DNA from: Oculatellaceae cyanobacterium Prado106
GTDB lineage: Bacteria; Cyanobacteriota; Cyanobacteriia; Elainellales; Elainellaceae
Length of the DNA stretch: 42,727 nucleotides
Assembly: GCA_025454315.1 (NCBI GenBank)
Contig: JALOOP010000003.1
Coordinates: forward strand, 1 to 42,727
Direction: 5' to 3'
This document shows positions 5,866 through 42,053 of this stretch, piece by piece; the stretch's first letter is position 1; each line of letters begins with the position of its first letter. Below the pieces are notes generated by a model, which was not told the origin of the DNA, did no database searches, and saw only the letters and a list, made by a program, of their open reading frames with translations. The translations under genes were made by a program, and so were the position numbers.

Positions 5866-5996
5866 GTGAAAGCATCTAAGCTTTGCTTGAAAGCCCCAAA
5901 TACAGACCAGCCTAAATTGGTCGTTGAGTTGCATGATGAGTTCAATTCAATGATCGATTGATTTGTCCTGTGCATTTACCACATTGGAACACTACC

Positions 5997-7547: not shown

Positions 7548-7624
7548 GGCTGCGGCGATCGCAATGACCAAGCGGCTGTGGAACTCGGGTCACGACATTG
7601 AATCTGTAAGATCAGGCCTGTAGG

Positions 7625-7742
7625 ATGCGTTAGCGAAGCGTAAGGGGATCTCTGAGAAAGAAAATCCCAGATTTTTTGTGGTGTGGCGAGGCCACACCAC
7701 AAAAAATCTGGGATTTTCTTTCATGGAAATGTCCTAACGCAT
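7625..7742. repeat. Nested inverted repeat with 32-bp perfect stem
   Basis: The inner arms 7656-7687 and 7691-7722 are perfectly complementary over 32 bp around a 3-nt spacer (GAG). The outer arms GATGCGTTAG (7625-7634) and CTAACGCATC (7733-7742) are also complementary. The structure looks like a long hairpin inserted within a GTAGGATGCGTTAGCG-type repeat. As RNA it would be a very stable bidirectional terminator. Confidence 0.92.
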
Positions 7743-7832
7743 CGGTGATCGATACGTGGTCGATGAGATGTTATGCTTCGTTCGCTTTAACGTCTTGATT
7801 CAATGTTCGGATCACCGAATCCAATCCTAGTA

Positions 7833-7900
7833 CAATGTCACTGAAATAACGATCCGAATCGCCCCCCAACCCCCAACTCTGGGGGAGCCGAGGCTTCAAG
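7833..7900 (+). mobile_element. Partial copy of the CAATGTCACTGA MITE-like element
   Basis: It starts with CAATGTCACTGAAATAACGA and continues with the C-rich core (CCCCCCAACCCCCAACTC, then GGGGGAGCCGA), matching the left end of the complete element at 40545-40677. The right terminal repeat is not found, so this is a truncated or decayed copy. Confidence 0.75.
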
Positions 7901-8016
7901 TTTACATAGACATTTCCTTTCGGAAATGCTTCTCGTGCAATAGCTCTTGTTTGTGCCGGAATAGTCTCAGTTATTTCTTAACAAGCCCTAAGTGCTGTCC
8001 CTGATTAAAAAATGTT

Positions 8017-21291: not shown

Positions 21292-21313
21292 GGTGATCCC
21301 TACAGAAGAGCGA

Positions 21314-23527
21314 TTAGGGCTTTTTGATTTTTTGTAGATCAATAATGTTGTTGGACGAGTGCCCCTCCTTAGTTCCAGGAGAAGACTGTGAAGCTAGGAG
21401 CGGATGGGTGGGCTGGGGGTAATAACTGGGATAAACTTCCTGAGCATTGGTGTGCAGGTCTTTGGAGCCTGTCGCCACCAGTCCTAGCACTGATATCCCT
21501 GTTACTTGAAGTTGCTCTAATGCCTGTTCTAGGAGTGTGGATTTCAGTTTCCCTAATCCTGTCACTAGTAATAAACCATTTGCGTATGCTGTCATCAACG
21601 AGGCATCGGCAAAGCCCAGCAAAGGCGGTGTATCATAAATGATCAGATCAAACTGATCAAGGCTTTGTTCGAGGAGCGCTTGCATTTTGGGAGAAGCCAG
21701 GAATTGAGTGGCATCAGGCGGAACTGCGCCTGCGGTTAACACAAAGAGATTGTTGGAGAGGGGCGATCGCTGCACCGCCTCATCCAAAGTAATATCGCCA
21801 ACAATCACATGGGTTAATCCCTGCTGATTCGAGACTTGTGCCAAGTGGTGAACTTGGGGATGACGCAAATCCGCATCCACGAGCAACACCCGTCGCCCCA
21901 TCGCTGCCGTAGCCTGAGCTAAACCCAGAGCAACCGTCGATTTCCCTTCACCCGACACAGCAGAACTGACGACTAGCGCCCGAATCGGGGCATTGGGATT
22001 GAGGAGGCGAATGTTGGTGGAGAGCGATCGCAAGGCTTCAACGAAAGAAATCGCGGTATAGGCTTTGGTGGGTGGGTGATCGGTCGGCGATCGCATCAGC
22101 AAAGTCGCCAACTCGTCCGGTTGATCCGACCGGGATAGGCGATCGCTATGGGGAATCACACCCAGCAAAGGTAATGGCGTAATTCGCTTCAATTCCTGAG
22201 TGCTGTGGATCGTTTTGCTCAGTTTGTCTAGCAGTAGAACCAGCGCAATTCCCAGCACCAATCCCAGTAGGATACCCAGCACAACATTCCGTTCAATACT
22301 GGCAGTGGACACCTGGGGTTGGCTGGGTGGCGTGAGCAGTTGCCAGGGAATTTCTCGCTGAGCTGCTTCAATCTCTAGAGATGCCTGTTTGGTGAGGAAC
22401 TGATTCAAATTTTCGATGGCAATTTGCAACTCGCTTTGAATGGTGTCGTACTCACGGGAGATGCCGGACAATTGATTGATGTTGCCATTCAGGGAAGACA
22501 GGGTTTCTTGAAGGGCGCGATCGCGTTCTTCCAATTCTTGAATTTGAGTATTGAGCTGAGCCTGGACATTTTCTGTTTCTTCCTCCAACAGGGCGACCAA
22601 ACTCTGGCGCTGTTTATCTAGAAGTCGCATATCCGGACTCTTCGGCAAAAACAATGCCGAGGTTTCGGCTCTTTGGCTGTCGAGGGCTAGCAGTTGATTT
22701 TTAAGAGCCTGATAGCGGGGCGCGCTGTCTAGGGCTGAGGAAGTGGCTGATTCTCCCGATTGAGTCTGGAGTTGGGCTGCGACTGCCCGAAGCTGTTTCA
22801 ACTGCACTTCCACTTCTAACTGTTGCTGCGAAAAGGTATTGACCTGTCCCGTGAGTTGTTCTCCTTTGGCTGCCGGATCAACAATGGCGTTGCGGCGACG
22901 CAGATTCTGAAGCTGTTGCTGGAGTTGTTCAACGCGATCGCGCAACAAAGGCAACTGCTCGCGAACAAACGTAATTCCCTGGCGAATATCGCCCTGTCGT
23001 GATTCTAAGCTGTAATCCAAATAAGCCTGAGAAATGGTTTCTAGAATCGTTTGAACCTGCTCCGAATCACCACTTTCATAGGACACCAGCAACACATTCC
23101 GATTAGACTTACTGGCACTCAGTTCCAGATGCTTCACCAGTCTGCCATAGGTGATCTGCGGATAGCGAGTTTGGAGGCGATCGACGATCGGTTGCAGAAC
23201 CGTAGGACTGGTGAGAACTTTCAGTTTTGTGCTGTCAATTCCGTTGTCCTGCTGATCCTTACTGCTCAAAGTATCCGGCAACGTAGAAATCACCTGGGAT
23301 TCTGCGGTGACAGGCTGTGTCAAAATTTCAAACTGAGCCTTGTACACAGGAATAGCCGTAAAAGCCTTGTAGGCCGTCGCCGTCGCCACCAGCACCGTCA
23401 CCCCCCCAATCAATAAAAGCTTGCGGTGCAGCGCCGCTAAAATTTGACCGAAATTCAAACTGCCGTCATCGCCAGCCTCAGCGAGAGGTCGGTAAGAGAG
23501 GGAAGACGCATAGTAATCAGTTTTCAT
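21314..23527 (-). CDS. Wzc-like polysaccharide co-polymerase/tyrosine autokinase
   Basis: A 737-residue inner-membrane protein. Residues about 20-110 form a Wzz/PCP domain with the first helix at about 37-55. A long coiled coil spans about 195-385, and a second helix (GILLGLVLGIALVLLL) lies near 415-430. The BY-kinase domain has Walker A GEGKST ending at 531, Walker A' VLLVDADLRHP at about 547-557 and Walker B LIIYDTPP. The C-terminal tyrosine cluster is small: Tyr699, Tyr702 and Tyr703 in YPSYYP. Such proteins control chain length and cooperate with Wza for export. The gene follows the Wza-like gene after 12 bp. The start ATG 23527 has only a weak Shine-Dalgarno. Confidence 0.95.
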   Translation of the reverse strand: MKTDYYASSLSYRPLAEAGDDGSLNFGQILAALHRKLLLIGGVTVLVATATAYKAFTAIPVYKAQFEILTQPVTAESQVISTLPDTLSSKDQQDNGIDSTKLKVLTSPTVLQPIVDRLQTRYPQITYGRLVKHLELSASKSNRNVLLVSYESGDSEQVQTILETISQAYLDYSLESRQGDIRQGITFVREQLPLLRDRVEQLQQQLQNLRRRNAIVDPAAKGEQLTGQVNTFSQQQLEVEVQLKQLRAVAAQLQTQSGESATSSALDSAPRYQALKNQLLALDSQRAETSALFLPKSPDMRLLDKQRQSLVALLEEETENVQAQLNTQIQELEERDRALQETLSSLNGNINQLSGISREYDTIQSELQIAIENLNQFLTKQASLEIEAAQREIPWQLLTPPSQPQVSTASIERNVVLGILLGLVLGIALVLLLDKLSKTIHSTQELKRITPLPLLGVIPHSDRLSRSDQPDELATLLMRSPTDHPPTKAYTAISFVEALRSLSTNIRLLNPNAPIRALVVSSAVSGEGKSTVALGLAQATAAMGRRVLLVDADLRHPQVHHLAQVSNQQGLTHVIVGDITLDEAVQRSPLSNNLFVLTAGAVPPDATQFLASPKMQALLEQSLDQFDLIIYDTPPLLGFADASLMTAYANGLLLVTGLGKLKSTLLEQALEQLQVTGISVLGLVATGSKDLHTNAQEVYPSYYPQPTHPLLASQSSPGTKEGHSSNNIIDLQKIKKP

Positions 23528-23539: not shown

Positions 23540-24994
23540 CTAACGAAAGATATTCAGGAGACGAACGGGAAATCCTAAAATCGAGAGAAAACTCCCCAAG
23601 GGCGCAAGAGTCGTATTCAGGGTATCGGAAAGGTTCGCCGCGCCCGATCGCCGGACAACAATGACATCGTTGTTTTGTAATAGGGGATTGCTTTGGTCAT
23701 TGACATTGGCCGCAAAGTCTATGGGGAGATCTTGCTGGGTGACAGTGCCATTGGCATTGAGGCGAATCAGTTGGACATTGCCTCGGCGGGCGCGGTTGGT
23801 GAACCCGCCTGCGGATAAAAGTCCTTGATTGAGCGGGGTATTGGGGGGCAATTCTACGGTGCCTGGATTTTCGACTTCGCCCACGATGTTGATGCGGATT
23901 TTGTCGGGGGCAAAGCTGGCAGAACCCGTCTGAGAAGCCTCAGCCAGGGTCATTTCAGTTGCGGTGGGGATAATAATGCGATCGCCCTCTTGCAACGTTA
24001 GATCCTGGCGAATATCAGCGGTTTTGAGCAGTTCTAATAGGTTCGCTTCCAGAATTTGTTCAGTGCCGCTGCGGGTGGTGCGGCGCACCTGGACTCGCTG
24101 TAAATCGGCAAAGGGTTTAATGCCACCTGCAACTTGAATAGCGCGGGTGAGAGTGGGCGCTGTGCCGCCACTGCCGCCCTGTCCTGATTCTCCAGCGATT
24201 CCCGTTTGGGCGGTGCCGCCTGCGACGGTATAGGAGCCGGGGCGATAGACTTCGCCACCGATGGCGATGTTAATGGGGCGATCGCGATTGGCCGCAAAGC
24301 TGGCATTGGCCAATTCGGCGGAGGCTGCGACATCGGCTTGTGTCATGGTAGGTACCAGGATTGAATCCCCATCTCGCAGCGCAATATCAGACTGAATGTT
24401 GCCGCCGCGCACCAGTTGCCACAAATCCACATGGATAATTTCATCGCCTCCCGATCGCCGGGGACGACGAATTTCAATTTTCCCTAAATCTGCAACTTGG
24501 GTAACTCCACCCGCCAGTTCGAGCAGGTGCGTTAAATTAGGAAACTGGGCGCTTTCCATGGAGAGGCTGTAGGAGCCAGGTTTGCTGATTTCGCCTGCGA
24601 TCCCGACCTGGAGCGATCGCGCAGCCATCAAACTGACGGTAATGGTCGGTTCGTTTAAAACTTCGCGGTAAGCGTAAAGAACTGCCGCTTCCACTTGTTC
24701 CAAAGTCATTCCCCGCACTGACAACCCACCGACGACAGGTAGATTCACGGTACCATTCACCAACACCTGAAAATCACCGCTGTATTGCGGAATGCGGAAA
24801 ATATCAATATGAATGCGATCGCCCGAATCTAGGGTATAGCCCGCATCAGGAGCAGTCGCAGCAGGTGCATCGGGGGAGGCGGGTGGGATTGCAGCCATCG
24901 CAGGGGTGACAGCCATGAGCAGGGCTAAGGACAACGGCATGATGGGGCAACAGAACCGTTTCCGTCGCCGAGTAGAACGAAGGATAAGCATCAT
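23540..24994 (-). CDS. Wza-like polysaccharide export protein (SLBB domains)
   Basis: A 484-residue OPX family protein. A signal peptide (basic RSTRRRKRF, hydrophobic core, AMA cleavage near residue 35) precedes the polysaccharide export sequence domain (YTLDSGDRIHIDIF to about residue 125). Three SLBB-type beta-grasp repeats follow (about 130-215, 245-350 and 368-450), each with a G-E-x-x-x-P-G signature such as GEISKPGSY, GEVYRPGSY and GEVENPGTV. A Gly-rich insertion (about 262-285) interrupts the second. There is no lipobox cysteine at the cleavage site, unlike E. coli Wza; the only early cysteines are in FCCP before the hydrophobic core. It is likely the periplasmic/outer-membrane part of the export machine, directly upstream of the Wzc-like gene. 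Confidence 0.94.
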   Translation of the reverse strand: MMLILRSTRRRKRFCCPIMPLSLALLMAVTPAMAAIPPASPDAPAATAPDAGYTLDSGDRIHIDIFRIPQYSGDFQVLVNGTVNLPVVGGLSVRGMTLEQVEAAVLYAYREVLNEPTITVSLMAARSLQVGIAGEISKPGSYSLSMESAQFPNLTHLLELAGGVTQVADLGKIEIRRPRRSGGDEIIHVDLWQLVRGGNIQSDIALRDGDSILVPTMTQADVAASAELANASFAANRDRPINIAIGGEVYRPGSYTVAGGTAQTGIAGESGQGGSGGTAPTLTRAIQVAGGIKPFADLQRVQVRRTTRSGTEQILEANLLELLKTADIRQDLTLQEGDRIIIPTATEMTLAEASQTGSASFAPDKIRINIVGEVENPGTVELPPNTPLNQGLLSAGGFTNRARRGNVQLIRLNANGTVTQQDLPIDFAANVNDQSNPLLQNNDVIVVRRSGAANLSDTLNTTLAPLGSFLSILGFPVRLLNIFR

Positions 24995-27465: not shown

Positions 27466-28704
27466 TTACTTTAAGGTCGTGGATAATTCATCAAACAACG
27501 CAGAATAACGCTGGGCTTGCAACAGGAGCGTGAATTCTTGTTCAGCTTTTGCCCGAGCGTTCATTCGGAGTTGATGATGCCGATCGCTGTCTGCCAGCAC
27601 CCACGCAATTCCTTGGGCTAAATCCTCAACCGAAAAAGGCTTTGCTAAATACCCCTCTTGTTCATGAGCAATAATATCCTTCAGTCCTGTTGCCCCAAAC
27701 GCCACTACAGGCGTACCGCAGGCCAACGACTCAGAGGCCGTTTGACCAAATGCCTCCTGTAGCGAAGGCACGATCATCACATCTGCTGCGGAATAACTCA
27801 GCACTAGCGGTAAATCATCATAAAAGCGTCCTAAATAATGGGTCTTCAAGCCAAAGTCGATCGCCTTTTCAGGAGTCGCTCCCCCAAAAATCACCAGTTC
27901 GACGCGATCGCCCCATCCTGTCAACTGCTTCAGCGCCGCCTGGAGCAAGGCTAGTCCCTTTCGAGGTTCACCAATTGCATTAGACCCTGCACCAAATAGA
28001 ATGAGTTGTTTATCGGTGGGTAAATTGAGAAGCTGACGCGCCCACCGCGAATCAATCGGTTTGTACACCATGGTGTCTAAACCATGAGGAATCACCTCGA
28101 CCCGGATACCGTTGAATAGAGAACTCTTTTGGGCACAGTCCGCCATCCACTGACTAGGCGCAACCACCGTCAAATTCAACTTAGAATAAACAGCAGCCTT
28201 CCGTTGCCAAATCCAATGAGAGGCATCCCAGTTTCCCTGGCTTTTGAGACTGGGACAGGTACCGCAGGCTTGCATATAGCGATCGCACCCCTCCCCATAG
28301 TGACATCCCCCTGTAAAAGGCCACATATCATGCAGCGTCCACACCAAGGGTTGACGAAATTTGGCCAGCGTTTCAATTTGCAGATACCCATTACAAACCC
28401 AGTGTAGGTTAATCACATCTGGATTCATTTGAGCGACCTTGTGAGCCAGGGTATCAGGAAACCATTGCGGCGAGAAGTTGACGCGATCGCGATCGGGATA
28501 AACCTTGAGCGGCAAATGATTAAGTCGCTCTCCGACTTTTGCCAGAATGGATCGTTGCACCTTGACGCTGGCATCGCCGCTGTCCTTATTCTGCACCAGC
28601 ATCTGAGACGGAACCTGGATTCCTCGCAAACTTTGGTGCAATCGATACGCAGCCCGCGCCGCGCCCCCTTCAATATCATTCGTACTCAACAATAAAGGTT
28701 TCAT
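27466..28704 (-). CDS. Family 4 glycosyltransferase
   Basis: A 412-residue GT-B enzyme starting MKPLLLSTNDIEGGAARAAYRLHQ, a typical N-terminus with the GGAARAA loop. Further marks are VINLHWVCNG, WTLHDMWPFTGGCHY, a cysteine-rich segment (CDRYMQACGTCP), the donor-side LFGAGSNAIGEPRKG, and SLQEAFGQTASESLACGTPVVAF (EX7E-like). ATG 28704 overlaps the stop of the upstream acyltransferase as ATGA; the open frame continues 76 codons upstream into that gene and should not be used. The next gene, the beta-helix protein, starts 149 bp downstream. Confidence 0.93.
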   Translation of the reverse strand: MKPLLLSTNDIEGGAARAAYRLHQSLRGIQVPSQMLVQNKDSGDASVKVQRSILAKVGERLNHLPLKVYPDRDRVNFSPQWFPDTLAHKVAQMNPDVINLHWVCNGYLQIETLAKFRQPLVWTLHDMWPFTGGCHYGEGCDRYMQACGTCPSLKSQGNWDASHWIWQRKAAVYSKLNLTVVAPSQWMADCAQKSSLFNGIRVEVIPHGLDTMVYKPIDSRWARQLLNLPTDKQLILFGAGSNAIGEPRKGLALLQAALKQLTGWGDRVELVIFGGATPEKAIDFGLKTHYLGRFYDDLPLVLSYSAADVMIVPSLQEAFGQTASESLACGTPVVAFGATGLKDIIAHEQEGYLAKPFSVEDLAQGIAWVLADSDRHHQLRMNARAKAEQEFTLLLQAQRYSALFDELSTTLK

Positions 28705-29798
28705 GAGCCTGCCACTCCAAACATCAGTTTCGATATCCTGGGCTGACGGAGGGCGATCGCCGTTATCCCCCAACTGACCCCAAACCCAATCAGGGCAACC
28801 CCCAACGGCAGCCACAGCGGGAAGATCCCAGATGGCAACCCCAAGCGCGTCAACAGACTCCACAGCAGTTCCACCCCGAGCAAATGCATTAAATAAATCC
28901 CAAACGAGCAATCCCCCAAGCTTCTGATCCAAGGCTGAGTTGGAATCACGGCAGACAACCCAAGAGCTAGAAAAACAGCAGAGTAACCCAGGCTTAACTC
29001 TCGAACCGCTTGAATGGAGTGGGGCACCTGAATAAAAACCAGAAGGATGAAAAGAAGGGATAGAAAGATGATATTTTTACGACAGAAGTTATTGAAATAT
29101 GAACGAATCGAAGTATGGTTGAGGAGAAAGGCGATCGCAATATAGGGCAGACATCGAACGGCATACCCCAAAACCGAAACGAGGATCAATAAACCTGAAT
29201 CTCCATCCTGCAATAGGCTGACTGCATCCGGATAGACAACGCTTCGGTAAATTTGGTAGAGAATCAAACTGGCTATCACAAACCCAATCCTTTTAGACAC
29301 TGACCATCGCTGTTTCAGCCACGGTACCAGAACAGCAATGCAGCCCGTTCCAGTCAACAGTAAAGGAATGAAATAGAGATGAAACCCAGCCTGCCCTAAG
29401 AAAACAATCGCGGGCAGTTGCGCTAGCAGACGAACCAGTTGCTCAGGTTGATGCTTCAAGAGCGCTCTTAGAATATCTTGGCTTAAATAAATACCACTCC
29501 AAATTGCATAGGGAATCACCAATCGTAGACAACGCGATCGCCAATTGGGTGCAGTCGGACGGTTTACCCATTTCCCAACGGTTAAATAAAATGAGGCTGC
29601 AAGGAAAAAGGGAACGGCAAAAGCCGCCAGGTTAAGCATCACAGTCCATCCTATTGGAGCAAGACGCATCCCTTCATCGGCATGTAAAATGACAACAGCA
29701 AAGGCCGCAATGCCCCGAACAAGATCCAGCCCAGTCAAACGATCGCCGTCAATCGAATCATCTCGATGCAGATGGCCGCGTTGCAAAGCATTAGACAT
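28701..29798 (-). CDS. Acyltransferase family 3 (OafA/YrhL-like) membrane protein
   Basis: A 365-residue integral membrane acyltransferase with about ten helices. The N-terminal GLDLVRGIAAFAVVILHADEG carries the family LDxxRGIA and the catalytic-type His in VILH. Later elements include VPFFLAASFYLTVGKW, the LRLVIPYAIWSGIYL loop, and a terminal SFGIYLMHLLGVELL with a second conserved His. These proteins acetylate or succinylate sugars of surface polysaccharides at the membrane. The start overlaps the end of the upstream glycosyltransferase by 8 bp and its stop overlaps the next GT4 by 4 bp, so it is translationally coupled. It likely decorates the repeat unit. Confidence 0.93.
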   Translation of the reverse strand: MSNALQRGHLHRDDSIDGDRLTGLDLVRGIAAFAVVILHADEGMRLAPIGWTVMLNLAAFAVPFFLAASFYLTVGKWVNRPTAPNWRSRCLRLVIPYAIWSGIYLSQDILRALLKHQPEQLVRLLAQLPAIVFLGQAGFHLYFIPLLLTGTGCIAVLVPWLKQRWSVSKRIGFVIASLILYQIYRSVVYPDAVSLLQDGDSGLLILVSVLGYAVRCLPYIAIAFLLNHTSIRSYFNNFCRKNIIFLSLLFILLVFIQVPHSIQAVRELSLGYSAVFLALGLSAVIPTQPWIRSLGDCSFGIYLMHLLGVELLWSLLTRLGLPSGIFPLWLPLGVALIGFGVSWGITAIALRQPRISKLMFGVAGS

Positions 29799-30969
29799 GG
29801 GACAACATCTCCTGAAGGGCGAGGTGCAGTTGTGCGATCGAGTGGCGTTGGTGGTATTCTGCGAAGTTATGGGGTAAAGCAGGCTCCTGGCAGAGCGTGT
29901 GAAGTGCTGCCATACAGCGATCGACTTTTTCGGTGCCCTGTCCGGCGATCGCCACTCCTAAAGAAAACTGCTGGACTCGTTCTCCCAAACAAAATCCTTC
30001 GCTCACAATTACGGGCTTTTGAAATACAGCGGCTTTGGTTAACAGATTGCTGCTGTAGGGAAAATCTTCATAGGCCGCAAACAAAATATCGCTGGCATTC
30101 ACCAGGGCATTGAACTGAGGTTCGTCGGGAATAGGTTCCAACCGGAAAAAGCAGTTGGCTGGCGGGTTAGCGGCGATCGCCCGAATATGTGCCTGATCGT
30201 TTGCTGATAAAGTGTAGGGAGAAAGTTTGCCTGCAAACACAAAGAAATAAGGTTCAGATGGCGATCGCAGTGCCACATCAATGCAAGTCAACAAGCCTTT
30301 GCGACGATGTAATGAACCCAGCAGCGCGACAATCTTTCTGCCCTGGGCTTGCTCTCGGATCTGCTCGACCCAGGCAAAGTTTGGATCGGGTGCCGTTTCA
30401 TCGGTGAAATCCGGAAACGATAGAACGGGTGTGCGGACGCGCTGTTGCAGTTGTTGAGCCATGTCCATATCCAGGACACCACAGCCCCGGCAGTGCCGTG
30501 CATTGAGGGCTTCATGGTGATCCAACCATCCCCGTTCCCGCTGCCATCGCGGTTGGAAACATAAGCCTGCCCAAGGATAGGGGAAGAGGCGATCGATCAG
30601 CGCATGGGGCAAATAAGCACTGAACAAATCATCGAGCCAGTTGAATAAAAATAACTCCGGTGACTGCCCCAAAACTTTACGAGCTATCTTGGCCATCTGG
30701 GCTGCGGCCTGCCATCGTGCCAGCACCTGGAGCGGTTGCGGCAGTTTTCCAAAACGAGGTCGTAGGGTGCGAGGCTCTACAGCAGGCAAGACTTTGAAGC
30801 GATGCAGGCTCTCAGGACAGGCGATCGCCATCCATCCCATCACCTGCTCAGGCTCCGGATAAAAGACCAGCACAGAGTAGCCCGATTCCAGGAGAATTTT
30901 GCTGATGACTCGCAGATACATCAAATGATGACCACCCCCATGGGTTTCGATGATAACAATGGCGTTCAT
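29791..30969 (-). CDS. GT-B glycosyltransferase
   Basis: A 392-residue protein beginning AIVIIETHGGGHHLMYLRVI, a nucleotide-binding fold start with a His-rich glycine loop. A Trp/Arg-rich central segment (FQPRWQRERGW) and a cysteine pair (HCRGCG) precede the donor domain: IVALLGSLHRRKG, FFVFAGKLS and YEDFPYSSNLLTKAAVFQKPVIVSEG, which replaces the usual EX7E region. It resembles divergent GT4/group 1 transferases. It starts four bases inside the end of the upstream gene (ATGA) and overlaps the acyltransferase by eight bases. Donor and acceptor are unknown. Confidence 0.82.
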   Translation of the reverse strand: MNAIVIIETHGGGHHLMYLRVISKILLESGYSVLVFYPEPEQVMGWMAIACPESLHRFKVLPAVEPRTLRPRFGKLPQPLQVLARWQAAAQMAKIARKVLGQSPELFLFNWLDDLFSAYLPHALIDRLFPYPWAGLCFQPRWQRERGWLDHHEALNARHCRGCGVLDMDMAQQLQQRVRTPVLSFPDFTDETAPDPNFAWVEQIREQAQGRKIVALLGSLHRRKGLLTCIDVALRSPSEPYFFVFAGKLSPYTLSANDQAHIRAIAANPPANCFFRLEPIPDEPQFNALVNASDILFAAYEDFPYSSNLLTKAAVFQKPVIVSEGFCLGERVQQFSLGVAIAGQGTEKVDRCMAALHTLCQEPALPHNFAEYHQRHSIAQLHLALQEMLSHV

Positions 30970-32123
30970 GCAACTGTCTCCAACGATTGCGAAGGAGTCG
31001 GAGCCGGAGTGGCTTGAACCGTTTCCAAGAAGCGTAGAGCAGTCGGCACCGGACTATAATGTTGAATCGCCCAGGCTCGCCCTGCGGCTGAAATCTGGCT
31101 CAGCAACTGGGGTTCAGCGGCGAGGCGATCGGCGGCGGCCTGCATATCATCGAGATCAACCCCGATATAGTGCGTCCAGTTTACCGGCATCACCGGTAAA
31201 CCCACACCGTATTTCTCAAAATCCACATGGAACGCGATACAGCCTGCTGCCATCGCCTCCCACAGCCGCCAACTTTCCCAATTCATGATTCGTCTGGGTG
31301 TTGGACTGGCGATCGTGAGGATCTTATTCAGCAAACGGTCTTCCCATTTGGATGGGCCAAACGCATCTAGCGGCCAGGGATTAATTAGTAATCCGCCAAA
31401 GCAGGCACAAGCGGCTGTTTCCCGAAGTCGTTGGTAGTAGTTGGGGTAATGGCGGCGATCGGTCTGTACCCAGTGTAGATAGGCGTACTCATCCGTGGGC
31501 GATACGGCGGTGCTATCGACAGACTCATCAATGGGAAGGGTTGCCTGAATCAGCGGGAGAAATTGGGTTTGGATCGCCTTCCGAATCGGATGCCCTAATC
31601 GAAAATTGACTAGTAAAGCCTGTCGACGGTCCGAGAAATCGGGGAGGTTTTCGAGTTCCTGTAGCATTCGGTTGGATAGGCCAAATGCCCAAGGGTGAAA
31701 ATTTTTGGGATATTGAAAGCGGCTATTGTAATGGGTTCGTAGAATCAAATCAAAGGCTCGAAACTCTGATTGCCATCCATGTCTAGCATCTGCTTCGCTT
31801 TCAATGTAAACGGTTCTATAGCGACGCTGAGGATGAAATAGCTTCTCAGGCATGGGGCGATCGGCGGTAAACCATGCCGTATGCAGCACCACAATATCGC
31901 AATCATCTGGCGTGACATCAGGGTGATGGGTGAATAAATAACCGTCGGAATGCGGAGCGGTTTTCCAGAAGGGGCGATCGCTATAAAACGGAATGCCGAG
32001 TGCCTGAAGTCCTTCGGCTAAACAAACCAGTTGATGTTGATAAACGGTTGTTTTAGAGTTGGGAAGACCGGGAGGGCAACAGTAGAAAAATACGCTTGGT
32101 TTCGAGTCTAAGGAATTGAACAT
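30966..32123 (-). CDS. Probable glycosyltransferase (CgeB/group 1-like)
   Basis: A 385-residue protein. The N-terminal half has a Rossmann-like region (SVFFYCCPPGLPNSKTTVYQHQLV, DIVVLHTAWF). The C-terminal half has LINPWPLDAFGPSKWEDRLLNKIL, then NWESWRLWEAMAAGCIAFHVDF, the usual late-donor-domain helix of CgeB/exostosin-like glycosyltransferases with an E-A-M-A-A-G core. A trailing helix-rich segment (YIGVDLDDMQAAADRLAAEP) follows. It is coupled by ATGA to the next transferase. It lies after a 190-bp gap from the megasynthase gene, which contains a near-direct repeat (CAGGAATAGGAT twice) but no obvious promoter. The family assignment is by pattern and position. Confidence 0.78.
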   Translation of the reverse strand: MFNSLDSKPSVFFYCCPPGLPNSKTTVYQHQLVCLAEGLQALGIPFYSDRPFWKTAPHSDGYLFTHHPDVTPDDCDIVVLHTAWFTADRPMPEKLFHPQRRYRTVYIESEADARHGWQSEFRAFDLILRTHYNSRFQYPKNFHPWAFGLSNRMLQELENLPDFSDRRQALLVNFRLGHPIRKAIQTQFLPLIQATLPIDESVDSTAVSPTDEYAYLHWVQTDRRHYPNYYQRLRETAACACFGGLLINPWPLDAFGPSKWEDRLLNKILTIASPTPRRIMNWESWRLWEAMAAGCIAFHVDFEKYGVGLPVMPVNWTHYIGVDLDDMQAAADRLAAEPQLLSQISAAGRAWAIQHYSPVPTALRFLETVQATPAPTPSQSLETVA

Positions 32124-32313: not shown

Positions 32314-35300
32314 TCAGGCGATCGCCTGACCTAAACAAGCATCTAAGACCTGTGCAGCGGACTGAACCTCCTCACGGATATAGGTGTCGTGGTTGCCGGG
32401 AATCACATGGATTTCCACGCCTTCAGCGGCAATGTGCTGCCATCCAAGGCTGGGATCTTGAGGATATCGATGATTCGTCCATTCGGGGCCTGCTTTTTGA
32501 TCGTAGCGCTCGTGATATCGCGCTTCGTTGATCAGCAGCGTCACTCGTCCGGGGTAGGGACGGACTTGATGACGAAACAAGAGGGCCGCTCGATGTTCTT
32601 TTTCCTGGGGATCATAGCGAAGACGAGTTCGCAGAATTTTCGCTTGCTCAGCTTCCAGAGAATCAATCTTGGGTGAAGGCTCTTGAATCAAAGTATCTTT
32701 CCGGACTTTATGAGTGATTTGATTCCAGTAATACAAGGATTTTTTCCAGAATCCAAACTGGAAAAACCGCTGTCGATGATGCTCTGCCCTTCGGCTCAGA
32801 TTCTTGAAAGCCTTGCGAATTCGGTACCGCAAATAGGTTCCCTGCTGAGGCACACCGCTGTCCAACAGAACTAAAAGAGCAACTTGTTCACCCTGATCCT
32901 GAAGACATCGAGCAATTTCAACACCCAGAATACCCCCAACACATTCTCCGCCCAATAGATAAGGCCCTTGCGGTTGAATCGCCTGGATATCTTGAACATA
33001 ATCAGCGGCCATTGCCTCTACCGTTTTGTAGCGATCGCCCCTCTCATTCACCCGACGCGCTTCTAACCCATACACCGGTTGATCCGGACTTAAAGCTTGC
33101 AGGAGCGGCGCGTACATCAGAAAATCCACATCGACCGCCCCTCCACCCGGAATCCAAAAGAAGGGAAGACGATCGCCCCCAGCCTTAAGCAAAAACACTG
33201 GGGAATGGGGCATCGCAGTCTGCGGTTGTGCCGATGTGATTTGGACGACGAGTCCTGCGATCGTGGGTGCGGTAAAAAGACAAGTGGGAGGGAGAGCAAG
33301 ACCAAAGGCTTGTTCTAATTGTGACAAGAGTCGCACTCCCAGCAAAGAACTACCGCCCAATTCAAAGAAATTATCGTAAATGCCAGGGTTCGGAACATTT
33401 AAGATCTCCTGCCAAATTGCTGCAATCTGCTTTTCTAGCGGGGTGCGCGGTTCAATGGAAGGTGAAACAGATTGTTTGCCCAGCGTCAGGAGTTGTTGGC
33501 GATTCTCTGCTGTTGCAGTGACCTGTTGAAACTGGCAGGTGGTGGGAGTTTGAAAGCGATCGCCCATCTCCAAAGCTTCAAGTTGAGGGGCGATCGGATC
33601 TGCTGTTCGATGAACCAGACCTGTTTGATGAGCCGGACTATAGTAGGCGGCCAACTGCTGCAAGGCATAGGATGGCTGATTCAGGTAGCGTCGCACCAAG
33701 CGATTTTGAGCATTTAATCCTACCAGCAAATGGGGAGTCGTTAGACGTAAGCCAGCCAGCAAAGAGTATACGCCTTGCTCAGCCGTCATCGTTTCGTATC
33801 CACGCGCACGTAGAGCCTCTTTCGCTAGCGTTCCTCGGCTTATTCCCGTTTCATTCCACAAACTCCAACTGAGACAGTGACTTTGAATGCCCTGCTGCCG
33901 TTGATAGTGGACAAAGTGATCCAAGAACGCATTCGCCGCCGCATAGCCTCCAATCATCGCCCCTCCAAAGAAACTGGTGAGAGATGAAAAATGCACAAAC
34001 AAACGCCCCGATCGCCCCTTCAGCAATCGATGCAGTGCCCAAGCTCCTGACACTTTCGGTTGCAGAATTTGAGCAAAACTTTCAGCAGTGGTATCCACAA
34101 GCGTCTGTTCCTGATAAATCCCTGCACAGTGCAAAATACCTTCCAGGAAGCATTGCCAATCGGTTTCTAGACGCTTCACGATTTGTTGGAGGCGATCGTC
34201 ATCGCTAATATCCACCGCTTCGTAGCAAACTCTGTCTGAATCGGTTGATTCTATCAGCGATCGATAGGCTCGAAGACGCTCCGTAGTAGAATCTTGCTCC
34301 TGAAGTAATTGATCCCAGGTGTCTGAGGGAGGTAAGGGAGTCCGTCCAATCAGCAATAATTTAATGGAATAGTTTTGCAGCAGATATTGAGCTATTGTGA
34401 CACCAATACCACCCAATCCGCCGCTGATGAGATACAGCCCTCCCGACTTAAACGGTAAATCTTGCAGAGACTCAGACTGAAAGTCGGCCTTCCTCAATCT
34501 GGGAATCCACCGTTGACCCTGACGATAGGCGACTTCGCGTTCTTCAGGAATCACCTGCATTTCTTGCAGAATCTTTTTCTCCCAGCCCATCTCATGGGGA
34601 ATATCCAGGTGACGACAGTCCAGCCAGGGCATTTCCTGGGAGGCTGCTTTAAGGATGCCTAACAGCAGGGCTTGGTTAGGGTTGACGGTATCGGTTTCGG
34701 TGACCTGTTGACTGTGATGGGCAACGACAAGGAGCCGCGTAGGGTGGGGATGATCTGCGAGGGCTTGAATGAGAGAGATGAGGCGGCTACAGGTCTGTAA
34801 ATCAGACTGTAAATCTGGATGTTCACCAGGATGTTCACCAGGATGTTCATCGGGGTGTAAATTTGGAGGAGAGATGGGGCGATCGCAGTCACCATACCCC
34901 CAAAGATAAACAATTTGACGAATGGATGGAGATACCCAATCGGCAAACAGTTGATGATAGTGAGTTGCGTTATTGGGATCAATTTGATAATGATTAGCGG
35001 CCAGTTTTAGGAACTCTGATCCTGCCTCGATCCGAGTATAGGGTTGAGGAAAGGTTTCACACAGCGTCGGTAAGTCACAAAAGAGAAGCGGATGTAGACT
35101 CACAGGAGTTGGCATCAAAAGCGCTGCGGCTTTTCGTTGCCAAACCTTTTGGTAAAACCAATCGGGGAGCGTATTGGTATTGTGGCTGATGCAATCGACC
35201 GTTTTCAAAACGCTGTTGAAATCTCCTGCTTCAAAGCTGGCTTTCAGTTGCGATCGCTGAATTTTGCCGATCGCTGTTTTAGGAATCGCCTCCTGCTCAA

Positions 35301-37428
35301 CAGGGATTAAATAGGTTGGATTGATCCCAATTTTCTGTACGACCTGCTGCCGGATTTCCTTGAGCAGGGTTCGGAGTCGATCAGGCTGATGGTTCGAGGA
35401 GTGGAAGAAGATGGCAAGGCGATCGCCCCCTTCACGGGAACGCACTGCACAAGCCGCCGTATAAGACACCTCAACCCCTGCGAGTTCTTCCACAGCCGTT
35501 TCGATCTCATGGCTATAGTAATTTGCCCCATGGATAATAATGATATCTTTTTCTCGTCCGGTGATCGTCAACCGTCCATCCTTCAAGTAAGCCAAATCGC
35601 CTGTACTAAACCATCCGTCTTCTGTAAACGATTCTTGATTCGCTTTTGGGTTTTGATAATAGCCACTCGTGACCGTTGCCCCTTTTACTTGCAGCCGTCC
35701 CGCAACGCCTTCGGAGACCACCTGCTGATGCTCATCCACAATTCGTAAGGAAAATCCTGGGAGGGGTCTGCCCACTTCCACGAAAGGATCTTCGTCACGG
35801 GTGGTTTCCAGCCGAAAGCGATCGCCATAGGTCACCCCCGACGAAGTTTCTGACATGCCCCAAGCAGGGTGCATCGCTGTAGGCTGCACGCCGTGAGGAG
35901 CCAGAAGCTGAAGAAAATGACGAGCGGTACGAGTCGCGATCGCCTCACCGCCATTCAAGAAGAAGCGAACGGAGGACAAATCTCGCTGACTTGTATCTTT
36001 TGCCAACTGTTCATTGACCAAGCCATAGGCAAAATTGGGAGCAAACGTGACCGTGACCTGATACCGCTCCAGCCAGTCTAGCCAACGCAAAGGCGATTGC
36101 AATACCAAATCAATCGGAGCATGGATTTGTTGACACGCTAGATACACATCGCGCAAATGGAAATAGATTAATCCGGCAACGTGATCGAGCGGCATCCAGT
36201 TCAAGGTAATCTCTGTTGCAGAGAATTGATTGAGCTTGGCTGAGGCCACGGAGCGACTGATGATATTTCGATGGCTCAGCATCACGCCTTTGGGTTTGCC
36301 AGTACTGCCAGAGGTTAACAGTAACATCGCCAAATCATCAGGCTGGCTCAGATGCCAATGGTGATCAGGATCGTGGGTCTGCAAATCCTCTACGATCGCT
36401 ACCTCCCATCGCTCCAACCCCAGCAAACCTGCCGCCGACTGCACGGCTGTCGCTAACTTTCTCCCGGCTAAAATCAGCGGTTGCTCCAGCATTTGCCAAG
36501 CATGATGCAGCTTCTGTACAACTCCATTTGCTTCAATGTAAGTGGGCGCGATCGAGACGGGAACGGGAACAAACCCGCCCATTAAACAACCCCATAATGC
36601 CGCAATGAAATCTGAATTCTGTTCTAACTGAAAAATAACTTTATCTTGTGGTTTTAATCCCTTCTGCCGCAAACCCGCCAGAATTCGCTCAGCCCTTTCT
36701 AATAACGTCCCATAGGATTCAAAGACAGCCGAACCATCGGCTTGCAGATAGGTGATGCCCTGGTGGGGCGATCGCGCCGCCTGTTGAAGTATCTCGGGCA
36801 GGGTTAGCGGCGTTTCAGGGGCAATTTCTAAGGGTTCACCATGACTGATCGCAGGTGATCCGAAATGATTCTCAGCAGGACACTCTGGCGCATGAACAAC
36901 CGCCGACTCTATCGATTCTCCTGCTTGCCATCCGGGAATCACATCGGCCAGATGGAGCGGCATTCGGAACTCGGCATAGTCTTCGATTTCGACCGCCGCT
37001 TGAGCGATCGCCTCCTGTTGATGAAGCTGATCTTCCCAGCGTTTTACTAAGTCATCGTCTAAAACGGCCAGTTGACTTAAGGCGAGTCGATCGACCTGTC
37101 CATCTTCTGTTAAGGGGAGGGTTGCGATGAGAATAAAGGATAATCTTACAGGGAGTTTGGGGAGGTGGGATTGCGATCGCTCCTTTGAAAAACCGCTATC
37201 TGGCACCACATAGGCTAATAATTCGGGCTGAGATCCGGTTGCATCCACTTTTTCTCGAAGGTAAACGGCGCAATCGAGGACGGTTGGCTCCATTGCGAGT
37301 TGTCCTTCGATTTGGGCAGCCAGTTGTTCGAGTGATAGTTCGAGTGATAATTCGAGCGAGGGTTCAAGTGAGAGGGCTTCCTCTAACCGGATAGATGAGT
37401 GTAGTGCTTGGGGCTTTATCTGAACCAT
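32314..37428 (-). CDS. Acyl-ligase/KR/ACP/thioesterase megasynthase
   Basis: A 1704-residue single-module synthase. Residues about 30-125 resemble an isolated C-terminal lobe of an adenylation domain (GQVDRLAL at 110-117, Gln111 where Lys is expected). A full AMP-binding ligase follows (about 205-735): core LLTSGSTGKPKG at 370-381, MPLDHVAGLIYFHLRDVYL, FAPNFAYGL, STGDLAY, and Lys722 in TAIGKIQR. These match acyl-activating loading domains of PKS/FAAL-like type. A ketoreductase (about 755-1240) has GGLGGIG at 1003-1009, Ser1148/1149, Tyr1162 and Asn1166. A carrier domain has ELGGSSLLGV with phosphopantetheine Ser1361. A thioesterase (1410-1704) has GGECVGG with Cys1496, Asp1523 and His1680. 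No condensation, KS or AT domain is seen. AGGG lies 8 bases before the ATG. It sits between GT61 and GT genes of the polysaccharide block. Confidence 0.94.
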   Translation of the reverse strand: MVQIKPQALHSSIRLEEALSLEPSLELSLELSLEQLAAQIEGQLAMEPTVLDCAVYLREKVDATGSQPELLAYVVPDSGFSKERSQSHLPKLPVRLSFILIATLPLTEDGQVDRLALSQLAVLDDDLVKRWEDQLHQQEAIAQAAVEIEDYAEFRMPLHLADVIPGWQAGESIESAVVHAPECPAENHFGSPAISHGEPLEIAPETPLTLPEILQQAARSPHQGITYLQADGSAVFESYGTLLERAERILAGLRQKGLKPQDKVIFQLEQNSDFIAALWGCLMGGFVPVPVSIAPTYIEANGVVQKLHHAWQMLEQPLILAGRKLATAVQSAAGLLGLERWEVAIVEDLQTHDPDHHWHLSQPDDLAMLLLTSGSTGKPKGVMLSHRNIISRSVASAKLNQFSATEITLNWMPLDHVAGLIYFHLRDVYLACQQIHAPIDLVLQSPLRWLDWLERYQVTVTFAPNFAYGLVNEQLAKDTSQRDLSSVRFFLNGGEAIATRTARHFLQLLAPHGVQPTAMHPAWGMSETSSGVTYGDRFRLETTRDEDPFVEVGRPLPGFSLRIVDEHQQVVSEGVAGRLQVKGATVTSGYYQNPKANQESFTEDGWFSTGDLAYLKDGRLTITGREKDIIIIHGANYYSHEIETAVEELAGVEVSYTAACAVRSREGGDRLAIFFHSSNHQPDRLRTLLKEIRQQVVQKIGINPTYLIPVEQEAIPKTAIGKIQRSQLKASFEAGDFNSVLKTVDCISHNTNTLPDWFYQKVWQRKAAALLMPTPVSLHPLLFCDLPTLCETFPQPYTRIEAGSEFLKLAANHYQIDPNNATHYHQLFADWVSPSIRQIVYLWGYGDCDRPISPPNLHPDEHPGEHPGEHPDLQSDLQTCSRLISLIQALADHPHPTRLLVVAHHSQQVTETDTVNPNQALLLGILKAASQEMPWLDCRHLDIPHEMGWEKKILQEMQVIPEEREVAYRQGQRWIPRLRKADFQSESLQDLPFKSGGLYLISGGLGGIGVTIAQYLLQNYSIKLLLIGRTPLPPSDTWDQLLQEQDSTTERLRAYRSLIESTDSDRVCYEAVDISDDDRLQQIVKRLETDWQCFLEGILHCAGIYQEQTLVDTTAESFAQILQPKVSGAWALHRLLKGRSGRLFVHFSSLTSFFGGAMIGGYAAANAFLDHFVHYQRQQGIQSHCLSWSLWNETGISRGTLAKEALRARGYETMTAEQGVYSLLAGLRLTTPHLLVGLNAQNRLVRRYLNQPSYALQQLAAYYSPAHQTGLVHRTADPIAPQLEALEMGDRFQTPTTCQFQQVTATAENRQQLLTLGKQSVSPSIEPRTPLEKQIAAIWQEILNVPNPGIYDNFFELGGSSLLGVRLLSQLEQAFGLALPPTCLFTAPTIAGLVVQITSAQPQTAMPHSPVFLLKAGGDRLPFFWIPGGGAVDVDFLMYAPLLQALSPDQPVYGLEARRVNERGDRYKTVEAMAADYVQDIQAIQPQGPYLLGGECVGGILGVEIARCLQDQGEQVALLVLLDSGVPQQGTYLRYRIRKAFKNLSRRAEHHRQRFFQFGFWKKSLYYWNQITHKVRKDTLIQEPSPKIDSLEAEQAKILRTRLRYDPQEKEHRAALLFRHQVRPYPGRVTLLINEARYHERYDQKAGPEWTNHRYPQDPSLGWQHIAAEGVEIHVIPGNHDTYIREEVQSAAQVLDACLGQAIA

Positions 37429-38690: not shown

Positions 38691-40472
38691 TTACCCCGCA
38701 ACCTTGACCACTTCGTCATAGCTCCCTGACCTGACCAGCCGACCTTTTTCGAGGAGGTAAACGCGATCGCAATGTTCGATGGTGGTGAGACGATGGGCAA
38801 TGATGATTAGGGTTTTGGTGCCGCTGAGGGATTGGATCGCATCGTTGACGAGTTTCTCGGTTTCGTGATCGAGGGCTGCGGTGGCTTCGTCTAAGACGAG
38901 AATTTCTCGCTCATGGTAGAGTGCCCTGGCAATGCCAACGCGCTGACGCTGACCGCCCGAGAGGCGGATGCCGCGTTCACCAATGACGGTTGCTAATCCC
39001 TGGGGGAGGTCGGCGATGAGTTCGGTTAGTTGGGCAGATTTTAGAGCGCGTTCAACTCGATCGTAATCAATGCGTGAATCGGGAACGCCAAAGGCAATGT
39101 TGCGGAGAAGGGTATCGTCCATCAAATAGATGGATTGGGGAATATAGCCGATACTGTTTTGCCAAGACCGAAGATGAGGATAGATGGAGGTGCCATCAAC
39201 CTGAATATCACCTTGAGTCGGTGTCAGCAATCCTAGGATAATGTCTACTAACGTGGTCTTGCCTGCTCCAGAACGACCAATGAGAGCGATCGCCTCCCCT
39301 TTATGAATCGACAGCGAAATATCCTTTAGCACCGCTTCTGCATGACCTGGATAAGAATAGCTCACCTGATCGAGCACAATTCGATTGGAAAAATTAATGG
39401 GTTGTTCTGTTGTTTTACTGGCGCTGATCTGGAGTTGGCGATCGGAGGACTGGCTAAAGGTTTCTAATTCCTTCAAATCAGCATACAGTTTATTCAGGGC
39501 ATAGCTATTTTGACGCAAAGAGCCGATCGCATTGGTTAACTGGCTGATGGCTGGAATGAGGCGAATGGAGGCCATTGCAAACACCCCGAGAATCGAGGTG
39601 AGCTTTTGAGGATCTTGATTGGACAATAGGAAAACTGCTGCAAGCCCGACTAAAAAAGTGATCAACACCGCTTCAATAAGGAGGCGGGGGAGCAGCTTGA
39701 AGACTTGAGACTCGGCCACTGTATGCTCAAATTGACGAACATAGTGATCCATCTTCTCTTCAAAATAGGCTTCACAGCCAATGATGCGCGTTTCTTTGAA
39801 CCCTCCTAAACTATGGTTAATGGTTCGCAAAATCTCAAGGTTGGCCTGGGAGCCTTGTTTGCCCCACTTCGCGAGTTGATATCGATACCGCTGATACAGA
39901 CTAAACGGAATCACCAGCATGATCAAAATGCTTGAAGTTGCCAGTAGGCTAGTTTTTGCTAATAAAATAGCCAGTGAAAAACTGATGATCAGATATGCCG
40001 CCGAATTGAGAATGGGCAGCATAATGCCATTAGCAAATCCTCGAACTTCCAGCGTAATGTTCTGAATCAACAGCGAAGTATTACAGTTGAGATGAAAGGT
40101 ATAGGGCGCAGATAGATAGGCGTGCAATAATTTCTGGCTGAGGAATCCTTGCTGACTGTAGGTGAAATGCAGAATATATTTTTGAACATAAAACGTTAAA
40201 TAGGATTTGATGTAGAAAATCAATACAATTCCTAATCCAAATAACCCAATGAACTGAACGGGGCTAGCTAACCCTGAGTGATTATAAAGCCATTGTAGAA
40301 AAGAGCTATGGACGATCGCCCCTGGATCAGTGGCCAACACCATAAAAGGCCCCACCAATCCAATCCCAAAGGTATCTAAAAAGGAGGTCAGCAGAAATAG
40401 CAGAACGGCAACCAGGAGGCGCGATCGCCGTTCTCCTAGAATGTACAGGAATTTTGAAAAGTATCGAATCAT
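38691..40472 (-). CDS. ABC transporter, fused permease/ATPase (PglK/MsbA-type flippase)
   Basis: A 593-residue half transporter. Six transmembrane helices lie in about residues 15-320 and the nucleotide-binding domain in about 360-590: Walker A GRSGAGKTT, Q-loop IPQSIYLMDD, signature LSGGQRQRVGIARAL, Walker B ILVLDEATAALD and the H-loop IAHRLTTI. Its length and N-terminus (MIRYFSKFLYILGERR) fit the PglK/WlaB group, ABC proteins that flip lipid-linked oligosaccharides. No Wzx homologue is seen nearby, so it may fill that role. Start choice is uncertain: ATG 40472 fits the family, while upstream codons at 40496 and 40502 lack a Shine-Dalgarno. It is the first gene of the minus-strand block, with a MITE in its upstream region. 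Confidence 0.9.
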   Translation of the reverse strand: MIRYFSKFLYILGERRSRLLVAVLLFLLTSFLDTFGIGLVGPFMVLATDPGAIVHSSFLQWLYNHSGLASPVQFIGLFGLGIVLIFYIKSYLTFYVQKYILHFTYSQQGFLSQKLLHAYLSAPYTFHLNCNTSLLIQNITLEVRGFANGIMLPILNSAAYLIISFSLAILLAKTSLLATSSILIMLVIPFSLYQRYRYQLAKWGKQGSQANLEILRTINHSLGGFKETRIIGCEAYFEEKMDHYVRQFEHTVAESQVFKLLPRLLIEAVLITFLVGLAAVFLLSNQDPQKLTSILGVFAMASIRLIPAISQLTNAIGSLRQNSYALNKLYADLKELETFSQSSDRQLQISASKTTEQPINFSNRIVLDQVSYSYPGHAEAVLKDISLSIHKGEAIALIGRSGAGKTTLVDIILGLLTPTQGDIQVDGTSIYPHLRSWQNSIGYIPQSIYLMDDTLLRNIAFGVPDSRIDYDRVERALKSAQLTELIADLPQGLATVIGERGIRLSGGQRQRVGIARALYHEREILVLDEATAALDHETEKLVNDAIQSLSGTKTLIIIAHRLTTIEHCDRVYLLEKGRLVRSGSYDEVVKVAG

Positions 40473-40544
40473 ACCCAGAACACCAGTAGAATGCATGAGC
40501 AAAGCAGAACCTGCATGAGCCGAGAGGAGAAGGCATCTTCAGGT

Positions 40545-40934: not shown

Positions 40935-42053
40935 CTACCCCGGTGTCACTTGCGCGACCTGAAGATACTGTTGCACGATCGCCCCCAAAGAAAACTGTTC
41001 CAACCAGCCAGCCTTGACGGGAGGGGTTTTGCCGTCTAGGACTTGAGCGATCGCCCGTGCCATTGCCTGTGCGTCCCCCACGGGAACCAAAGTGCCATAT
41101 TGACCGTGATCGAGAATTTCAGCAGGGCCACTTTCACAGTTCGTAGACACCACGGGCAGACCCACAGCCATCGCTTCCACCAGCACAAAGGGCAAGCCCT
41201 CCCACCGGGACGACAGCACAAACAGGGCAGAGCGCGCCATGTAGGCATAAGGATTGTTGACATAACCCGCCAACTGCACATCGGCTCCAATCCCAAGCTC
41301 CTCAATCAATGCCTCTAGCCTACGCTGCTCCGCCTCTGGCCCCCAACCCAGAATCACCAACCGTACAGGCCGCTGGGCGCGCACCTGGGCAAACGCCTGG
41401 AGCAGGGTTGGAAAGTCCTTTTGCATCTCTAGCTTGCCTACACCCAGAATGACGGGCGGTTCTCCGGCGGCAAACCAGGGATGCTCCAAGGGTTCCTGGG
41501 CTTTGCTGGCAATTTCAGGGGTTACACCCGGATTGTAAATGACATCTATTTCAGAGAGGGGCAGTCCCAATACCTGGTGCAAATCCTGGGCAACGCCGTG
41601 GGAGACAGCAACGACCGCATCGGCTCTGGGATAGGCCAGTTTGGCAATCCAGGGCGTGAGCCGCTTGCTGAGACGGGTTTCGTGGCGCGATCGCTGGGAC
41701 AGAGTATTCTGCTCACACACTACGACCCGAGTAGGAACCCTGGCCCAATGCTTGGCCAAAATAGCCAGTTCATTATTAAAGTGCAGCGCCGAAAGCAAAA
41801 CCGCAGGACGCTCTTTTCGTAGATAATCCACTAAGGCTTTCAAGGTTGCAACATGGTTGTTACTGTTGAGATTAATAATTCTTACATCTGCCGGAATTTT
41901 CCAAAGGTGTGTACCCGTCGCCTGACAGAGAATAAAGTCTACCTTGAGCCCCTGCTCAGCAAATCCCCGAGCTAAATAGACCATGGCTGTCTCTGCCCCT
42001 CCTCCGCCTACATACCGGAGAAACAGAGCCACACGCGATTGATCGTGAATCAT
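40935..42053 (-). CDS. Family 4 glycosyltransferase, paralogue of the 20131-21291 gene
   Basis: A 372-residue GT-B enzyme beginning MIHDQSRVALFLRYVGGGGAETAMVYLA. It has VCEQNTLS, NPGVTPEIA, LGVGKLEMQKDFPTLLQAF, a SRWEGLPFVLVEAMAVGLPVV donor motif (EX7E) and CESGPAEILDHGQYGTLVPVG. It is closely similar along its whole length to the GT4 at the other end of the minus-strand block. No Shine-Dalgarno is present, because five 16-bp tandem repeats end 3 bp from the ATG. Upstream is a large palindrome region. It is separated from the transporter operon by 462 bp and may be transcribed alone. Confidence 0.93.
   Translation of the reverse strand: MIHDQSRVALFLRYVGGGGAETAMVYLARGFAEQGLKVDFILCQATGTHLWKIPADVRIINLNSNNHVATLKALVDYLRKERPAVLLSALHFNNELAILAKHWARVPTRVVVCEQNTLSQRSRHETRLSKRLTPWIAKLAYPRADAVVAVSHGVAQDLHQVLGLPLSEIDVIYNPGVTPEIASKAQEPLEHPWFAAGEPPVILGVGKLEMQKDFPTLLQAFAQVRAQRPVRLVILGWGPEAEQRRLEALIEELGIGADVQLAGYVNNPYAYMARSALFVLSSRWEGLPFVLVEAMAVGLPVVSTNCESGPAEILDHGQYGTLVPVGDAQAMARAIAQVLDGKTPPVKAGWLEQFSLGAIVQQYLQVAQVTPG

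Follow-up and report, generated by a model that had tools for sequence, protein, structure and literature searches.

The DNA analysed here (the window) is a stretch of 42,727 nucleotides from Oculatellaceae cyanobacterium Prado106. It contains a co-directional minus-strand block of genes that runs from a GT4 glycosyltransferase gene at 42053 to a second GT4 gene at 20131. Inside this block lies an unbroken minus-strand open reading frame (ORF) of 1704 codons from its ATG, which encodes a nonribosomal peptide synthetase (NRPS)-like protein, referred to below as the synthetase:

40935-42053 (-), GT4 glycosyltransferase, first gene of the block
38691-40502 (-), ABC exporter, PglK/HepA-like, with a 50% identical counterpart in locus L209
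37439-38653 (-), GT61 glycosyltransferase, start codon uncertain (frame open to 38800)
32314-37428 (-), predicted freestanding keto-acid-reducing NRPS module, pseudoAsub(N)-A-pseudoAsub(C)-KR-T-TE, 1704 aa (from ORF, Pfam, PDB sequence match, fold match and catalytic residues)
30966-32123 (-), glycosyltransferase-like protein, no Pfam match; Nostoc-type genes by a HepA-like ABC gene are 46-50% identical to it
29791-30969 (-), glycosyltransferase-like protein without Pfam match, overlapping the 30966-32123 gene by 4 bp
28701-29798 (-), membrane O-acyltransferase (Acyl_transf_3)
27466-28932 (-), GT4 glycosyltransferase with 58-60% counterparts in L207 and L209
25220-27316 (-), pectate-lyase-like protein
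23540-24994 (-), Wza-like polysaccharide export protein
21314-23527 (-), Wzc-like chain-length/tyrosine kinase protein
20131-21342 (-), GT4 glycosyltransferase

The Wza, Wzc and glycosyltransferase genes are on the same strand as the synthetase gene, as in a Wza/Wzc-type polysaccharide operon. A preliminary description had placed the gene between GT61 and other glycosyltransferase genes in one co-directional block, and the neighbours and their shared strand agree with this. Only 10 bp separate the stop codon of GT61 from the ATG of the synthetase; on its other side, 190 bp lie between the synthetase gene and the gene that begins at 32123. The GC content and codon usage of the synthetase gene resemble those of its neighbours, which argues against a recent import. 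No promoters or terminators were found in the block above shuffled expectation. Condensation (C) and ketosynthase (KS) motifs were absent from every frame of the whole window, and there were no metabolite-cluster tailoring genes or dedicated metabolite exporter near the synthetase.

The two GT4 genes that flank the operon ends are alike in sequence and match the same PglJ/stp2-type model, as if they had arisen by duplication. Elsewhere in the window, an exosortase (PF09721) is followed by a small protein without a family match (9656-11241, minus strand), and two proteins with glycine-rich GGNDTL-type repeats, one of which has a subtilisin-like GTSAAAPHAAA stretch, are encoded at 5958-8844.

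Domain organization and relationship to StsA

Pfam assigned an AMP-binding domain (residues 232-591; 1.3e-57), a KR domain (997-1193; 4.8e-42), a PP-binding domain (1334-1394; 4.3e-14) and a Thioesterase domain (1437-1688; 3e-17) to the protein, and found no ketoacyl-synt, Acyl_transf_1 or Condensation domain in its 1704 residues. The ligase/KR/ACP/TE protein without KS, AT or condensation domain of the preliminary description is thus confirmed by ORF and Pfam. PF21394 (‘Beta-ketacyl_N’) reached 22.7 bits, below its cut-off of 26.9, with the match falling in the A-KR linker. The following regions were delineated:

37024-37317 (-), predicted N-terminal half of a pseudo-Asub, residues about 38-135 (PDB match to A-domain C-terminal subdomains, kept in related modules, folded in the model)
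35194-36807 (-), adenylation domain, residues about 208-745
33850-34440 (-), ketoreductase core, residues 997-1193, with NADPH motif 1003-1009 and K1125/S1149/Y1162/N1166
33247-33429 (-), carrier (PP-binding) domain, residues 1334-1394, attachment site Ser1360
32317-33216 (-), type I thioesterase region, residues 1405-1704; triad Cys1496-Asp1523-His1680, helical lid spanning about 90 aa

The catalytic residues of the ketoreductase, carrier and thioesterase (TE) listed above are all intact, as is K722 of the adenylation domain, and the genome has a match to a phosphopantetheinyl transferase (PPTase) for activation of the carrier.

In a sequence search of all solved structures, the nearest relative was StsA (6ULW), which matched residues 183-1394 with an E-value of 2.5e-228; the adenylation domain also matched McyG (4R0M) and StsA_A (6ULX). 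When an AlphaFold model of residues 30-1225 (pLDDT 81.5, pTM 0.53) was compared by fold, 6ULW again came first (E 8e-100), with an alignment of 1147 columns that includes the pseudo-Asub. Because of the pTM value, the TM-scores of 0.70-0.74 and the large rmsd, only the folds of the domains, and not their arrangement, are read from this model. The 6ULW entry is titled ‘Adenylation, ketoreductase, and pseudo Asub multidomain structure of a keto acid-selecting NRPS module’. Residues 39-119 match the C-terminal subdomains of A domains in the PDB (LgrA, E 2.6e-5) and are conserved in related modules. Residues about 38-135 represent the N-terminal half of a split pseudo-Asub, a feature that the preliminary description had missed.

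The window protein has the main features of StsA (6ULW/6ULX), which is the initiation module (A-KR-T) of a depsipeptide synthetase that uses keto acids: an A domain with a keto-acid pocket, followed by a KR with the split pseudo-Asub and a carrier, collinear over the 1147 fold columns, with the KR catalytic residues and the carrier serine intact. The difference lies in what follows. StsA supplies condensation modules in an assembly line, whereas the window protein carries its own TE, has no C partner in the protein or the window, and is found among glycan genes. The sequence and model comparisons indicate that the ‘acyl ligase’ of the preliminary description is an alpha-keto-acid-type adenylation domain of a keto-acid-reducing depsipeptide-synthetase module. 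The protein is a real and intact, though unusual, combination of known parts; its biochemical class is known and well characterized, and its context is new in the material searched.

The A-domain pocket has the residue series V A I N F N A M S G K. In StsA_A, the Asp that contacts the amino group in amino-acid domains is replaced by I306, while M415 occupies the position of a Pro, and the M415P mutation abolishes activity (PMC11253843). The equivalent residues here, V417 and M525, align with I306 and M415, and both markers of keto-acid selection described in that work, a hydrophobic residue in place of Asp and a Met in place of Pro, are present. The StsA pocket, read by eye from the alignment, is I G V N M N A M S A, and that of the Microcystis AerA-type proteins is I G S N F A A M S G (these loci were assigned to AerA by genus, size and layout, and not by annotation). 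The acid incorporated by AerA is phenyllactate or hydroxyphenyllactate (PMC10744761). The pocket residues are closer to StsA than to the Microcystis proteins, which suggests that the pocket is nearer to the aliphatic than to the aryl type. AerA-type loading modules of aeruginosin synthetases, which handle aryl lactate, share the A-KR-T order and the conserved N-terminal half-Asub with the window protein at about 39-45% identity, but they are about 1400 aa long, end after the carrier and are followed by NRPS genes for the peptide modules; the window protein differs from them in layout as well as in the Microcystis-type pocket residues.

It is unlikely, but compatible with any of the other explanations considered below, that the A domain accepts an aryl pyruvate, as does AerA, or a fatty acid, as does a fatty acyl-AMP ligase (FAAL), instead of an aliphatic keto acid. 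McyG, which was solved with phenylalanyl-adenylate, has the same V and M markers, and FAAL models do match, albeit below cut-off; set against this are the likeness of the pocket (V A I N F N A M S G) to StsA and the position of the FAAL structures far below StsA and McyG in the ranking. As an assignment of the ligase itself, FAAL was rejected: the best NCBIfam FAAL/FadD score was 297.7 bits against a cut-off of 572, and PRK09192 scored 259.7 against 600, in line with the fold ranking.

Taken as far as the hydroxyacyl-carrier, the predicted chemistry is well supported by the sequence and model comparisons. Reduction of a keto acid to a hydroxy acid, suggested earlier by analogy with A-KR modules, is strongly supported by the sequence and fold match to StsA, the pocket markers and the pseudo-Asub (PMC11253843).

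The thioesterase

Among 30 TEs compared, the Asp and His of the triad are invariant, while the nucleophile is either Ser or Cys. A model of the TE had a pLDDT of 76, with the core above 90 and a weak lid. The fold that it matched best was that of the Pks13 TE (E 6e-15), and 7CRN and NocB came next, no more than two orders of magnitude behind; by sequence, the nearest PDB matches were an epimerizing/cyclizing NRPS TE (7DXO/7CRN). In Pks13, the TE uses S1533 as its nucleophile and unloads the acyl product onto polyols, with a preference for trehalose (PMC9210659). The window TE differs in having Cys1496 in place of this serine. Moreover, the Pks13 sequence model was the first match for all ten control TEs, each of which scored higher than the window TE, so Pks13 is a precedent for the window TE and no more. 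A family of Pks13-like sugar-transfer TEs was rejected on the same ground, since ten other cyanobacterial or related TEs, of an ordinary kind, share the likeness. The Cys-type TEs of SulM and ObiF were likewise rejected as a class: they share the Cys, but the triad Asp is not on the loop after strand β7 (PMC11298585). In the window TE, Asp1523, the invariant residue, comes immediately after the strand that succeeds the nucleophile helix; this is the common position, from which SulM and ObiF depart. A TE-only search of 386 cyanobacterial genomes gave no close TE (E under 1e-35). By sequence, the window TE resembles general type I NRPS/polyketide synthase (PKS) thioesterases.

Related modules and comparable polysaccharide loci

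Matches with E under 1e-100 were found in 24 of the 386 genomes of the phylum, the window's own included, some of them to the A domain only, and with E under 1e-150 in 5 of 117 relatives. The full module was present in the window's own genome and absent from the other 35 of the 36 genomes of the order that were searched. We read 33 loci with related A-KR modules (the same species may be counted twice across the two collections). All lie in NRPS/PKS clusters except one, L040, which is cut by a contig end, and in 30 the same or a neighbouring ORF contains a C or KS motif. Two further loci have neighbours of this kind: a KS-AT-ACP-TE protein by Pfam in L127, and in L118 a KR-containing PKS-like protein cut by the end of the fetched stretch. 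None of the 33 has Wza, Wzc or GT61 neighbours, and generic ABC matches occur at three. The window protein was the only stand-alone A-KR-T-TE seen among the loci read.

A recurrence of the arrangement beside Wza/Wzc, raised as a prospect in the preliminary description, failed to materialize in the 386 phylum genomes, the 117 relatives or the 36 genomes of the order; the related modules that could be evaluated are in NRPS/PKS clusters, although none of those is stand-alone. It was also not found in the species contigs of 84,980 genomes, in a scan that detects only shared exact short peptides. Viral contigs yielded no relative, and literature searches for C-less A-KR-T-TE proteins and for NRPS in connection with capsular polysaccharide returned nothing relevant. 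In a phylogeny, the window protein pairs with Hyella (84/42 support) on a long branch, and this placement is not firm.

The related loci vary in layout. The L118:9103-15291 protein has the order A-A-KR-T-TE, and the equivalent of the half-pseudo-Asub is the Asub of the complete preceding A domain, which hints at a possible evolutionary intermediate and a route by which split pseudo-Asubs may arise. The A-KR-T protein encoded at L127:8157-15892 matches the window protein only from the A domain onwards, with no half-Asub match; it adjoins the KS-AT-ACP-TE protein and a methyltransferase in a two-gene hybrid system. In L048:2769-14254, two A-KR-T-related units follow one another, of which the first is divided between two ORFs.

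Within the window's own genome (92% complete, in 609 contigs), no NRPS line was found. There was one partial Condensation match (positions 25-173 of 456, in a 468-aa frame), and KS genes occur on other contigs. Given the completeness and the number of contigs, a missing NRPS line is conceivable.

Several polysaccharide loci resemble parts of the operon. The 30966-32123 gene has 46-50% counterparts at eight Nostoc-type loci (L168-L175), directly behind a HepA-like ABC gene in five and two or three genes away in three; a Wzc-like gene lies upstream in all eight. The ABC gene of the window (38691-40502) scored below the cut-off of the HepA model, and the PglK model scored higher than HepA. The 30966-32123 gene may belong to a polysaccharide system of the heterocyst-envelope type, here in a genome from a different order. 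While these HepA-type, heterocyst-envelope-like loci share this gene beside a HepA-like ABC, they lack the synthetase. L209 (G060) has, in one row and again without a synthetase, a GT-like gene, GT2, ABC (50%), Acyl_transf_3 (36%) and GT4 (60%), and L207 has a GT-like gene, GT4 (59%), WecG and Wza. The occurrence of the ABC and GT4 counterparts with Acyl_transf_3 in L209 argues that the exporter belongs to the glycan. Since similar operons exist without it, the synthetase appears to be an accessory addition to a recurrent polysaccharide set, which fits a tailoring role and also an incidental insertion. The Acyl_transf_3 gene (28701-29798; L209:13771-14889) is retained beside ABC and GT4 in another cyanobacterial family, and its acylation role is therefore probably independent of the synthetase.

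Fate of the hydroxyacyl group

We propose, at a probability of about 45%, that the protein is a freestanding, condensation-less StsA-type module that was recruited to a surface-polysaccharide operon and hydroxyacylates a sugar. The A domain would activate an alpha-keto acid, probably an aliphatic one from the Leu/Val/Ile or pyruvate pool, as the acyl-AMP and load it onto the carrier, where the KR would reduce it with NADPH to the alpha-hydroxyacyl thioester. Cys1496 of the thioesterase may then take over the hydroxyacyl group as a thioester and pass it, in the cytoplasm, to a sugar hydroxyl or amino group, the sugar being either a nucleotide sugar or a lipid-linked repeat unit. Acylation would precede export by ABC/Wza/Wzc, and the polymer would bear alpha-hydroxyacyl ester or amide groups. 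More tentatively, we suggest that the Cys-thioesterase of this condensation-free depsipeptide-synthetase module is itself the acyltransferase that places the hydroxyacyl group, reduced in situ, on the polysaccharide precursor.

The sugar-acylating reading is favoured by the StsA match, the keto-acid markers V417/M525, the intact catalytic residues and the PPTase match; by the lack of an NRPS line in the genome, the 10-bp spacing to GT61 and the neighbour-like GC and codon usage; and by the exporter counterpart in L209. Precedents are the Pks13 TE (PMC9210659) and Vibrio cholerae O1, in which perosamine is acylated with the hydroxy acid tetronate by genes inside the O-antigen cluster (PMC3441752). 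The latter (VC0248-VC0252) is likened to the window by layout and not by homology: both have genes for a hydroxyacyl substituent within a surface-polysaccharide cluster, but V. cholerae uses several separate genes and the window one synthetase module. The reading is weakened by the lack of a second example, the absence of the full module elsewhere in the order, the relatives in NRPS/PKS clusters, the ordinary TE with its unspecific likeness to Pks13, and the similar operons that run without the synthetase. Of the earlier idea of a carrier-bound hydroxyacyl group made for the polysaccharide, the hydroxyacyl chemistry is well supported by the StsA match. The sugar as acceptor is suggested only by gene position, and the link to the polysaccharide is indirectly favoured by the missing NRPS line and the exporter counterpart in a synthetase-free operon.

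The strongest competing explanation, which we consider rather unlikely, is that the TE couples hydroxyacyl units, cyclizes them into a small depside or diolide, or frees the hydroxy acid, yielding a small secreted metabolite with the glycan position incidental. The TE is an ordinary type I TE by sequence, closest in the PDB to an epimerizing/cyclizing NRPS TE, and related A-KR-T modules serve peptide or polyketide lines. C-A-KR-T-TE terminal modules such as NatD, which works in neoantimycin synthesis, share the A-KR-T-TE order, differing in their C domain and multi-module line (PMC11355689). However, tailoring genes and a dedicated exporter are lacking nearby, the ABC gene has its counterpart in a synthetase-free polysaccharide operon, and the gene is tightly coupled to GT61. 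A free hydroxy acid, furthermore, could be obtained more cheaply with a dehydrogenase.

Alternatively, a partner acyltransferase, for example the Acyl_transf_3 protein (28701-29798) encoded in the same block, could move the hydroxyacyl group to the glycan, leaving the TE to edit mis-loaded carriers. This seems improbable, since the ABC-Acyl_transf_3-GT4 set of L209 indicates that the acyltransferase has a job of its own, and membrane acyltransferases of this kind are generally supplied with acyl-CoA. Least probable is a decaying leftover of a larger depsipeptide cluster, present in the operon by chance and without a useful product: the N-terminal half-Asub does resemble the tail of a lost upstream domain (its equivalent in L118 belongs to a complete A domain), and the protein is unique in the order and on a long branch of its own, but the 5.1-kb frame is unbroken with every catalytic residue kept, and StsA-type modules normally contain a working half-Asub.

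If the synthetase does hydroxyacylate a sugar, nonribosomal depsipeptide enzymology would be joined with polysaccharide tailoring, giving a new route of bacterial glycan acylation by nonribosomal-peptide machinery in which one protein both makes a chosen hydroxyacyl group and attaches it to the sugar. It would also show a role for a Cys-type terminal TE in the absence of a peptide, and would add a further class of acyl substituents to the exopolysaccharides of cyanobacteria.
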